Origin: Gemmatimonadaceae bacterium
GTDB taxonomy: Bacteria > Gemmatimonadota > Gemmatimonadetes > Gemmatimonadales > Gemmatimonadaceae
DNA: 64,000 nucleotides
Reading direction: 5' to 3'
NCBI GenBank assembly: GCA_025934775.1
Contig: JAICWO010000001.1
Coordinates: forward strand, 62,001-126,000
Shown: positions 10,415 to 61,797 of the stretch, one piece after another
How positions within the stretch are numbered: position 1 is the stretch's first letter
Layout of the letters: every line of letters starts with the position of its first letter
Notes under the pieces: generated by a model
The model's input: only the letters and a program-made list of their open reading frames with translations
Database searches by the model: none
What the model was told of the DNA's origin: nothing
Made by a program: the position numbers and the translations under genes

Positions 10415-10480
10415 TGGCACGGCGAAGTGTACCGTGTTCTGTGAAGAGTGTTCCCCGGGGCACAACCCTACACGCCACCC

Positions 10481-10767
10481 GAGCCAATTCGCTGAATTCG
10501 ATTCATTCGAATAATTCGTAGCCCCCGCAGTGCCTCGTGAGCCACAAACCCTCCAGGCGCCAAGCGGCCAAGGGCAGGGGACTACGAATCAATCGAATTA
10601 ATCGAATTGAGCGAATGAAATCGGGGCATGTGGGCACGTCGGGCAACGCGGCTCGATCTCTCCGGCCACAGCCCCAAGAAGATTGGCTCGTTGTCGCGCA
10701 CCACCCTGCGCGCCCGGCGAGCCAATTCGTTGAATTCGATGCATTCGCACAATTCGTAGCCCCGCAG
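10481..10767. repeat. AT-rich degenerate 9-bp repeat, three copies, middle one inverted
   Basis: This repeat occupies much of the 502-bp spacer 10415-10916. Copies at 10481-10530 and 10719-10767 are near-identical in the same orientation (gagccaattcg, tgaattcgat, attcgtagcc, ccgcag), and their similarity extends about 20 bp to each side. The copy at 10581-10617 is inverted. Read on one strand each copy is a run of CGAATNNNN nonamers ending in ctacgaat. The base composition contrasts sharply with the surroundings. Confidence 0.85.
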
Positions 10768-12803: not shown

Positions 12804-13649
12804 TCAGTAGATGTACACGCGGGTTCCGACCGGCACGTTCTCGTACAGCCATTCGATGTCGTCGTCGCGCAGTCGCACGCAGCCGTGCGTCGCCGCGAGG
12901 CCGATCGACTCCTTGTCGGGCGTCCCGTGCAGCAGGAAGCCGTCGCCGAGGAGCAGGCGGTACTTGCCGAGCTCGCCTACGACCTTTCGGTTCTTTGAAC
13001 CCATCGGCGGCATATAGAGCGTGTTGCCGAACACGATGTGCTCGTCCGTGGGCAGCGCGGCGAACTCGCCGTCCTCGATCACGCCTGCCTCACCGTCCTT
13101 CATGGTGAGAATGCGGCCGTCGTCGAGCGTGACCGGGTGCCCGTAGTTGAGCTCGGCGAGCTTGAGCCCGTATTCCTTCGCCGTCTCGGCGTACAGCCAC
13201 TTGGGCGGCTGCCAGATCGGGTCGGCTTCCTTGCCGAGGACGTGGCGAATGCCGCGCGGCATGTCGAACGTCCATTCCTGATTTCCGAATTCGAGCGTTC
13301 TCCCTGACGCTACCGCCGCGGGTGCGCTGAGCAGCGTGTCCTGGTCGACGATCGCCCAGAGATGCCGGTCCTGCAGCGACACCACGAGGTGGAAGCCCCG
13401 CGCCTTGCTGGCGACCGCCTTGTTCCTCGCCCACGACAGACTGTCCGTGCGCGACTTGAACGAGTAGTGATGCACCGCGTCCGTGGCGGCGTCATCCGTG
13501 GCGGCCGAGCTGTCGGTGGTCGCGCGGGTGCGCGACGCGAGCTCGTTCTGGCCGGTTGGTCCCTGGGCGAAAACGCACGCCGGGACCGCGATCATCGCCG
13601 CGGCGGCGCCGAGCGATGCGATCCGAAAGAAAGTGTGAATGCTGCGCAT
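12804..13649 (-). CDS. YkuD-type L,D-transpeptidase, exported
   Basis: A 281-residue protein with a signal peptide ending AVPACVFAQ. The C-terminal YkuD domain has the catalytic set H241 (LLHGTPDKESIG), then THGCVRL with H255 and Cys257. It forms 3-3 crosslinks in peptidoglycan or attaches proteins to it, acting in the periplasm. The central segment FHLVVSLQDRHLWAIVDQDTLLSAPAAVASG is the usual domain start. Upstream of the start lies the 7-bp repeat array 13751-13877, so its promoter is confined to about 100 bp. Confidence 0.92.
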   Translation of the reverse strand: MRSIHTFFRIASLGAAAAMIAVPACVFAQGPTGQNELASRTRATTDSSAATDDAATDAVHHYSFKSRTDSLSWARNKAVASKARGFHLVVSLQDRHLWAIVDQDTLLSAPAAVASGRTLEFGNQEWTFDMPRGIRHVLGKEADPIWQPPKWLYAETAKEYGLKLAELNYGHPVTLDDGRILTMKDGEAGVIEDGEFAALPTDEHIVFGNTLYMPPMGSKNRKVVGELGKYRLLLGDGFLLHGTPDKESIGLAATHGCVRLRDDDIEWLYENVPVGTRVYIY

Positions 13650-13750
13650 GGTGGGCTCTATTGGAAAAGCGCCGTCGACTGGGGTGGGCGCTGCTGGCTA
13701 CCCATCGTGTACGCTAAATCCGTTCCAAAAGTGCCACAGTGATCTACTAC

Positions 13751-13877
13751 GTAGTTCGTGGACCGTGGACCGTGGTGCAAAGGCGCGAACCACGGTCCAC
13801 GGTCCACGGTCCACGGTCTACGGTCCACGGTCCACGGTCTACGGTCCACGGTCCACGGTCCACAGTCTACGAACCAC
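13751..13877. repeat. 7-bp tandem repeats in inverted arrangement (GTGGACC family)
   Basis: Left array: gtagttc, gtggacc, gtggacc, gtggtgc (13751-13778). An 8-nt spacer follows, then 13 units from 13787 to 13877, mostly ggtccac, with ggtctac at 13815 and 13836 and agtctac at 13864. Read on the other strand each right unit is GTGGACC or GTAGACC. The two arrays are complementary and can pair over 18 bp or more. The array ends 1 bp before the stop codon of the neighbouring barrel gene. Confidence 0.95.
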
Positions 13878-13878
13878 C

Positions 13879-14718
13879 TCAATACCAATTCAATCCCACC
13901 ACGATCGGAATCTGGTTGAGGTCGCCATTGCGGCTGAAGTGGATGTACCTCGACTCGACGAACAGGTTCGTGCGGCCGAAGCCGAACTGCACGCCGCCGC
14001 CGGCGTTCCAACCCCAGGCGTTGTGCCAGGAATTATCGGCGAACGTGACGCCGCCCGGTGCGACGACGCTGTCGCCGACGAGGAACATGCCGTTGGCGTT
14101 GTTGAACTGCACGACGTTCTTGAAGCGATTGTAGGTCGCGCCGCCCAGGGCGTAAATCTGGAAGCGCCGCGTGATCGGCGACGTGATGGGCAGCCGGAGC
14201 TTGAGATCACCGTCCGCGTTGAAGATCTGCGGCGTGGTCGAGAAGCCCTCGAACGGGTTCTTCGTGTCGAAGTGGCTGTAGCCCGCCGCGAACCGAACGC
14301 CAATCGGGCTTCCGATCGGATCCCAGCCGAGCGGAACGTCCACGTGCCAGCCGGTGCTCTGCGCGGTATTGAGGCCCTCGCCGCGCGGAACGGCGGCGCC
14401 GCCGTCCAGACCAATGTAGAACCCGCCGATCTGGCGCAGGATCGCCGGCATCGCGGCGGTGGTCGTCACGGTCGGTGTGATCGTGTCGACACGCGTGACG
14501 GTCACGGTATCGTGTTGATAGACGGTCACGGTGTCGTGCTGGTACACCGTGACGGTGTCCACGCGCATCGGAACCACTTCGCCCGGTGCACTCTCTTTCG
14601 AGATCGGAATGCGACGCGTCGACGTCGGTGTGCGCGTCGTCGTGTCGGTTTGCGCGGATGCCGTGCCGGCGACCACCAGCGTCGCGAGCACGACGGTCGA
14701 TGCGATGTGCAGCTTCAT
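13879..14718 (-). CDS. outer-membrane beta-barrel protein, RRIPISKE family, copy 1
   Basis: A 279-residue protein with a signal peptide (ending AGTASAQ), a Thr-rich segment, the motif TRRIPISKE, and a periodic stretch of RVDTVTVYQHDTVTVYQHD. A beta-barrel-like domain (GGFYIGLDGGAAVP ... NQIPIVVGLNWY) follows, ending in an aromatic residue as outer-membrane proteins do. Two paralogues follow upstream (15027 and 16250). The Val-Asp-Thr repeats are compatible with a short periplasmic or surface stalk. Function unknown. Confidence 0.85.
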   Translation of the reverse strand: MKLHIASTVVLATLVVAGTASAQTDTTTRTPTSTRRIPISKESAPGEVVPMRVDTVTVYQHDTVTVYQHDTVTVTRVDTITPTVTTTAAMPAILRQIGGFYIGLDGGAAVPRGEGLNTAQSTGWHVDVPLGWDPIGSPIGVRFAAGYSHFDTKNPFEGFSTTPQIFNADGDLKLRLPITSPITRRFQIYALGGATYNRFKNVVQFNNANGMFLVGDSVVAPGGVTFADNSWHNAWGWNAGGGVQFGFGRTNLFVESRYIHFSRNGDLNQIPIVVGLNWY

Positions 14719-30620: not shown

Positions 30621-30980
30621 GCTGCTGGAGGCTGAGGGCTGACGGCGGGGCTGAGGGCTGAGGCCGGAGCTGACAGCCGCAGTTCCCAGCTCGGCTATCT
30701 GCTATCAGCGACAGCTATCCGAGGAATGTGGAACGAAGCGTTGAATGGGAGGGCGGGGCTGGAGCCACGGGCTCGTTCGCCACTCAATAATGGCGCCGCT
30801 GCCAGCTTACGCGGTCGTGCCTCGATTCGCGTACGCCGCCACCGGAAGCCGACCCCCGATTCCACTACACACTTCCAAATCCCTCTGATAGCTGTCGCTG
30901 ATAGCGAACAGCCGAGCTGGGAACTGCAGCTGCCGGCTTGCCCTCACCCCTCAGCGCCGCCGTCAGCCTTCAGCCATCAG
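30621..30980. repeat. large inverted-repeat element with 7-bp GC-led units
   Basis: Left arm about 30621-30719 and right arm about 30887-30980. The core 39-nt arms at 30681-30719 and 30887-30925 match except around ctatct/tgttcg. The outer parts are degenerate runs such as ggctgag, ggctgac, ggctgag. About 165 bp of unrelated sequence lies between the arms. It fills the queC-queE spacer and touches the end of queC. Confidence 0.85.
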
Positions 30981-34731: not shown

Positions 34732-34800
34732 GTAGATGGTAGAGGGTGGAGGGTGGAGAACCGTTCGCTCTCCACTCTCTACCGTCGACTCTCCACTCTC
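34732..34800. repeat. 7-bp inverted repeat element between convergent genes
   Basis: Left units gtagatg, gtagagg, gtggagg, gtggaga (34732-34759). The right arm, read on the minus strand, has gtggaga, gtcgacg, gtagaga, gtggaga (about 34768-34800). It can form a hairpin of over 20 bp with a few mismatches and probably ends transcription from both sides. Confidence 0.8.
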
Positions 34801-40105: not shown

Positions 40106-40219
40106 GGTCGCTTTTGTTACGGGTCGTGGGTCACGGGTGAAGGGTTTCGAGTCTGAGTGATCTGCCGAGCTAACCCGTCACCCGAAACTCGCGACTCAGT
40201 ACTCGCAACAAAAGCGACC
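40106..40219. repeat. GGTCGCT-bounded 7-bp inverted repeat element, copy A
   Basis: The ends are ggtcgcttttgtt and aacaaaagcgacc, a perfect 13-bp inverted pair. Inside, left units gttacgg, gtcgtgg, gtcacgg, gtgaagg, gtttcga, gtctgag (40116-40157). On the minus strand the right arm reads gttgcga, gtactga, gtcgcga, gtttcgg, gtgacgg. It lies between the ADOP gene end and the OsmC gene start. Confidence 0.92.
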
Positions 40220-57489: not shown

Positions 57490-57566
57490 ATCGCGGCCCA
57501 AATAGGCACGACGTGCGCCAAGCCTCGGGGGAATGCACGAGGCGTGCGGCACGGGGATTACCGCCG

Positions 57567-57668
57567 GTCGCTTCTGTCGCGAGTCGTGCGTTACGGGTTG
57601 CGGGTTTTCGAGTTTTCAAACCCTCGACCCGGTGACGCGCGACCCAATACCCGCAACAAAAGCGACCG
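57567..57668. repeat. GGTCGCT-bounded 7-bp inverted repeat element, copy B
   Basis: Ends ggtcgcttctgt and aacaaaagcgacc. Left units gtcgcga, gtcgtgc, gttacgg, gttgcgg, gttttcg (from 57577). On the minus strand the right arm reads gttgcgg, gtattgg, gtcgcgc, gtcaccg. It lies between the NRAMP start and the aconitase end. Confidence 0.9.
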
Positions 57669-61677: not shown

Positions 61678-61797
61678 GGTCGCTGTCGTTGTGCGTTGTC
61701 CGTTGTGCGTTATCCGTTGTCCCGTTCGGCTTCGGGTCACGCGAGTTCGACGCAATCACGCACAACGGATAACGGAAAACGCAAAACGACAGCGACC
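61678..61797. repeat. GGTCGCT-bounded 7-bp inverted repeat element, copy C
   Basis: Perfect 13-bp ends ggtcgctgtcgtt and aacgacagcgacc. Left units gttgtgc, gttgtcc, gttgtgc, gttatcc, gttgtcc (61688-61722). On the minus strand the right arm reads gttttgc, gttttcc, gttatcc, gttgtgc. It lies between convergent genes. Confidence 0.92.

Follow-up and report, generated by a model that had tools for sequence, protein, structure and literature searches.

An inverted heptad array at the 3' end of a beta-barrel gene belongs to a dispersed, gene-end-associated repeat family with a species-private word

A window of 64,000 nucleotides (the whole stretch of DNA analysed) from a Gemmatimonadaceae bacterium carries, at 13751-13877, two runs of a 7-bp unit between an outer membrane beta-barrel gene and an L,D-transpeptidase gene. 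The question raised by this locus is whether the array serves the gene whose stop codon lies beside it, the gene which lies beyond it, or neither. The first-pass annotation had counted two oppositely oriented runs, of 4 and 13 units, with 8 nt between them, and a direct read of the sequence gives exactly this arrangement. The features of the site are as follows.

13751..13778, plus strand: short arm, 4 heptads (sequence read; inverted-repeat pairs I7-I19)
13779..13786, no strand: 8-nt spacer AAAGGCGC, loop region (sequence read)
13787..13877, minus strand: long arm, 13 heptads (sequence read and Tandem Repeats Finder)
13879..13881, minus strand: TGA stop codon of the barrel gene (sequence read, gene calls)
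13879..14718, minus strand: outer membrane beta-barrel protein gene, with the array at its 3' end (Pfam OMP_b-brl PF13505, E 2e-8)
12804..13649, minus strand: L,D-transpeptidase (YkuD) gene, downstream (Pfam PF03734, E 4e-20)
13710..13736, minus strand: promoter-like block TGGCACTTTTGGAACGGATTTAGCGTA, upstream of the transpeptidase gene (alignment)

The short arm reads GTAGTTC GTGGACC GTGGACC GTGGTGC on the plus strand, and the long arm, read 5' to 3' on the minus strand from 13877 to 13787, is GTGGTTC GTAGACT (GTGGACC)3 GTAGACC (GTGGACC)2 GTAGACC (GTGGACC)3 GTGGTTC. Tandem Repeats Finder describes the array with a period of 7, 11.7 copies and 90% matches. The outermost unit, GTRGTTC, is common to both arms, so that they resemble a duplicated arm with one copy lengthened; the two GTAGACC variants of the long arm are spaced three units apart, a regularity which suggests duplication of three-unit blocks. 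The predicted single-strand RNA fold of the array has an energy of −71.4 kcal/mol (z = −4.3), and none of the shuffled sequences folded as well. An Rfam search with the array matched no structured RNA family. A coding origin was rejected, as the gene caller preferred the Pfam-matched barrel gene over the open frames running through the array.

The Pfam matches agree with the barrel and L,D-transpeptidase readings of the first-pass annotation, and its placement of the array beside the barrel stop and upstream of the transpeptidase gene is right, with 1 nt between the array end and the TGA. Both genes lie on the minus strand, so that the array lies 3' of the barrel gene and 5' of the transpeptidase gene, whose start is at 13649, and it would be transcribed directly after the barrel gene.

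The array has many counterparts in the genome. The GTRGACC doublet GTRGACCGTRGACC matches the 4.88 Mb genome 61 times, at some 25 places, as compared to 0 for its reversed control, and the absence of copies elsewhere, which the first-pass annotation had named as grounds for discarding its reading, is clearly not what was found. When 854 kb of the genome, including the window, was scanned, 67 lag-7 segments scoring at least 12 were recorded, against 6 in a Markov simulation, a density biased upward because much of the scanned sequence was chosen around matches. Lags of 5, 8, 10, 11 and 13 gave 1, 2, 0, 1 and 2 segments, respectively, in the same sequence at the same threshold. The 67 segments merge into 51 elements, of which 43 lie mostly outside predicted genes. 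Their units share the profile G-T-R-G-A-n-n, the frequent words being GTGGACC, GTGGAGA, GTGGAAC, GTGGGAC and GTAGAGA. In all 29 two-armed arrays the G-rich arm precedes the C-rich arm. Arms of the same element pair with −40.6 kcal/mol as compared to −34.4 kcal/mol for swapped arms (permutation p 0.0026); better pairing of an element's own arms implies either joint change of the two or copying of one from the other. A few elements have a single arm or arms with different words. Within the window, a further arm of this kind is present.

34732..34758, plus strand: GTGGAGG/GTAGAGG heptad arm, 6 nt past a stop, between convergent genes

The position of these elements relative to genes, which were called by an in-house codon-usage finder and not taken from curated annotation, is uneven. 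Among 37 arrays with a stop-facing end, 30 have that end −30 to +12 nt from the stop, as compared to a mean of 16.5 and a maximum of 26 when arrays were placed at random in the same gaps (2000 trials); avoidance of promoters could explain part of this abutment. In codirectional gaps the array is closer to the stop than to the start in 20 of 23 cases. The 50 array-bearing gaps comprise 30 codirectional, 14 convergent and 6 divergent ones, against 202, 42 and 88, respectively, among 332 background gaps, so that divergent gaps are under-used and convergent gaps over-used by arrays. The stop codon next to an array is TAG in 21 of 36 cases as compared to 184 of 649 overall (p 0.0003), as when the GTAG of the unit supplies the stop codon.

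These observations are best accommodated, with an evenly balanced chance of being right, by reading the array as the 3'-end hairpin of the barrel mRNA, a REP-like structure without a U-tract which would protect or insulate the transcript. This reading starts from the position, polarity and complementarity of the arms, the predicted fold, the absence of a U-tract and the other hairpins found at the same place in several relatives; from these we infer transcription of the array and a stabilising or insulating role. On minus-strand transcription, the 13-unit G-rich arm would emerge right after the stop codon and pair with the 4-unit complementary arm, which would give an extended, imperfect stem followed by no U-tract. 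The REP hairpins of E. coli suggest, by analogy, that such a hairpin would most likely shield the 3' end of the transcript from exonucleases and pause or insulate transcription ahead of the next promoter. The transcript itself could be released by Rho, or by an ordinary terminator elsewhere. The arms would lengthen or shorten by unit slippage or recombination, and the species-private words described below suggest an exchange of words among the loci of a species.

An intrinsic, Rho-independent bidirectional terminator would likewise sit after stops, have strong stems and favour convergent gaps, as the arrays do (14/50 against 42/332). However, no U-tract was found after the arrays, most elements having 1-3 T in the next 12 nt, and a terminator scan at the 13751-13877 array found none. 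Hairpins with T-rich tails are present at other gene ends of this genome, which further argues against this explanation and makes it improbable. A signal for arrays replacing ordinary terminators within the genome (p 0.017) vanished when masking was controlled (3 observed, 4.1 expected), which counts against the 3'-end hairpin reading. In favour of that reading, Rho is encoded in the genome; a second strong Rho-like match of 434 bits, at another place in the genome, falls below the cut-off (L285; G000:C5:15436-16506). The sequence downstream of arrays has C 0.38 and G 0.25 as compared to C 0.33 and G 0.31 in an incompletely matched control; a Rut-like composition was not relied on.

Control of the transpeptidase gene was another role to be considered, since the array lies upstream of it. 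A length-variable regulatory element of this gene, or a protein-binding or G-quadruplex array, would agree with proposals that heptads elsewhere regulate or form G-quadruplexes (PMC4679880, PMC4692102). The 27-nt promoter-like block at 13710-13736 is conserved in two congeners, in which the array itself is not conserved, and it falls outside the array. The family follows stops and not starts, and its words are unconserved. A controlling role over the transpeptidase gene is thus unsupported, this explanation is highly improbable, and any effect on that gene would be conjectural. The dominant words GTGGACC, GTGGAGA and GTGGAAC contain no GGG, and a G-quadruplex was rejected on this ground.

A further explanation is a mobile element of REP/BIME type which a RAYT (Y1 transposase) has spread. 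The GTAG REPs carry outward GTRG, lie within 20 bp of the gene end in convergent gaps, often supply the TAG and form a GC-rich hairpin (PMC3733652); the GTRG-led, outward-facing inverted arms, the enriched TAG stops and the 3'-end location of the present arrays, with GTAG supplying stops, are similar to these. However, REPs are fixed palindromes of 20-40 bp, partly RAYT-linked (PMC3733652), whereas the array unit is 7 bp and non-palindromic, and unit number, word and spacer vary freely. The Y1_Tnp gene (PF01797), which is frequent though not universal in REP genomes, is absent from this genome (G000; assembly 99% complete) and present in four relatives. Spread by a RAYT is accordingly given very little credence.

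Comparison with relatives bears on the age of the array and on its main rival explanation. The GTRGACC-doublet word has 0 matches in all five congeners and one match in 39 relatives. GAGAGTG doublets number 73 in the genome and 0 or 1 in congeners, and GTGGGGC doublets reach 100 in one congener (G002), are missing from the remaining four and occur once in the study genome. The reversed control for GAGAGTG, GTGAGAGGTGAGAG, gave 46, 19 and 17 matches in the order-level relatives G033, G028 and G035, respectively, and looks like a private heptad word of their own. Congeners and family members have arrays of like design with other words, also with periods of 8, 10 and 11; gene ends in congeners carry tandem arrays whose unit is 10, 8 or 11 bp long (L110:12965-13006, L109:10281-10325, L124:8890-9076 and L110:15034-15131). 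Unit length is therefore not fixed at 7 in the genus; seven is the most frequent length but no rule. One array of family member G020 has the C-rich arm first, so that G-rich-first polarity is not universal either. A dispersed palindrome with CATCCTGAGCGCAGCGAAGGA lies past stop codons in congeners (L267, L273, L281), partly combined with short-unit arrays.

At orthologous sites, other structures were found in some relatives. The barrel-transpeptidase spacer of five relatives (G001-G004 and G014) has a GC-rich stem-loop and no lag-7 array; set against 40 shuffles each, the inverted repeat is better in three of these relatives, equal in one and worse in one. At the site beside L081:1129-2574, a different inverted repeat is present in each of all four congeners, namely GGGTTTA heptads, a 10-mer array, a CATCCTGAGC palindrome and a T-tailed terminator. 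At the two other orthologous sites compared, only 1 of 7 congener flanks exceeds shuffles, which counts against the 3'-end hairpin reading. Two sites therefore show replacement of hairpin by hairpin clearly, and two weakly. The private word, the near-identical units and the arrayless orthologous spacer of five relatives favour a young age, in line with the recent expansion suggested by the first-pass annotation.

The main rival is a neutral satellite, in which words arise from polymerase slippage and hairpin template switching and persist harmlessly between the stop and the next promoter. It would explain why the words of sister species are wholly different, in places at the same sites, why the period is not always 7 (8, 10 and 11 in congeners) and why nothing is found at some orthologous sites, and slippage is the guess published for heptamer excess (PMC4692102). 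Against it, arrays touch stops more often than random placement within their gaps would produce, although promoter avoidance may explain part of this; the polarity is consistent and the arms are matched, and slippage alone cannot put one word at about 25 unlinked loci and none in sister species. A neutral satellite is therefore a possible but less favoured explanation. The dozens of hairpins, mostly at gene ends, and the private words of relatives make it probable that the array is a rapidly evolving type of mRNA 3'-end structure.

The closest known systems are the GGGAATC and GGGGAYT arrays of Xanthomonas and Nostoc, which PMC4692102 describes as imperfect 7-bp units in 2-26 copies, dispersed and intergenic. 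According to the same paper, one Xanthomonas genome has 186 GGGAATC-type arrays and 70 inverted pairs, Xanthomonas genomes have 70-75 such pairs each, and the arrays lie a mean of 28 nt from the end of the upstream gene, are rare between divergent genes and have no known function; it also cites a bacterial excess of heptamer repeats noted in 2007, without established function or cause. The study genome likewise has imperfect 7-bp tandem units at many intergenic places, with inverted pairs G-rich first, near the upstream gene end and rare between divergent genes. Unlike those words, which carry G-quadruplex-forming G-tracts, the dominant words here are without G-tracts of 3 or more. The present arrays are thus of the same kind as the Xanthomonas heptad arrays, minus the G-tracts, which weakens the G-quadruplex as a general account of heptamers.

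A single heptad word over tens of loci per genome is also known for GATAGRA in Chloroflexus aurantiacus (PMC6749651), GGGACCG in Geobacter metallireducens (PMC2700814) and TAACTGA in Beggiatoaceae (PMC4679880). In contrast to the arrays here, the TAACTGA heptads form direct arrays ahead of start codons, and the Geobacter elements also lie inside genes. No literature on Gemmatimonadetes repeats or cyanobacterial STRR was found. Inverted gene-end heptad arrays were already known in Xanthomonas. Words private to single species among congeners, the excess of TAG stops, matched arms, replacement by other hairpins at orthologous sites and the breadth are new; the available part of PMC4692102 reports none of the first four. 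The comparison ties heptamer repeats to gene 3' ends and hairpins, and makes testable both a possible role of the hairpins in setting mRNA ends in GC-rich bacteria and the way in which one 7-bp word spreads over a genome.

The breadth of the design was assessed by scanning one genome per species, 84,980 species in all, for four GTRGWNC units, which gave at least 119 stretches. The matches listed come from Anaerolineae, Acidimicrobiia, Verrucomicrobia, Acidobacteria, Myxococcales, Bacteroidota, candidate phyla and others. Among the matches listed, the stop of a long ORF is no more than 30 nt from the array edge in 40 of 63 loci of other phyla, as compared to 7.9 expected at random positions, which are mostly coding sequence. 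A gene-end hairpin class spanning the bacterial domain, in which short inverted stop-touching units are kept and the word is swapped wholesale between species by an active process copying it into dozens of unlinked 3' ends, is a speculative extension of this result which we consider doubtful.

The window also holds members of a second family, whose ends are fixed (GGTCGCT/AGCGACC) and whose interior is made of heptads, for example TGCGTTG TCCGTTG. Its inverted elements are 100-131 nt long and mostly 13-50 nt from stops, and 12 copies were found in the 854 kb as compared to 2 for the control. The first-pass annotation had seen the same 7-bp logic at 40.1, 57.6 and 61.7 kb; this likeness holds, and those three elements constitute the window's members of the second family with fixed ends.

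40106..40219, no strand: second-family element, GGTCGCT...AGCGACC ends
57566..57667, no strand: second-family element
61678..61797, no strand: second-family element, between convergent stops

Further second-family loci are L074, L075, L079, L080, L085, L088, L091, L099 and L103. Two other inverted repeats occur in the window at 10478-10625 and 30668-30938, with arms of 49 and 66 nt, 82-86% complementary; the former has CGAATTAAT-like steps of 9 bp, and the latter adjoins GGCTGAG heptads.
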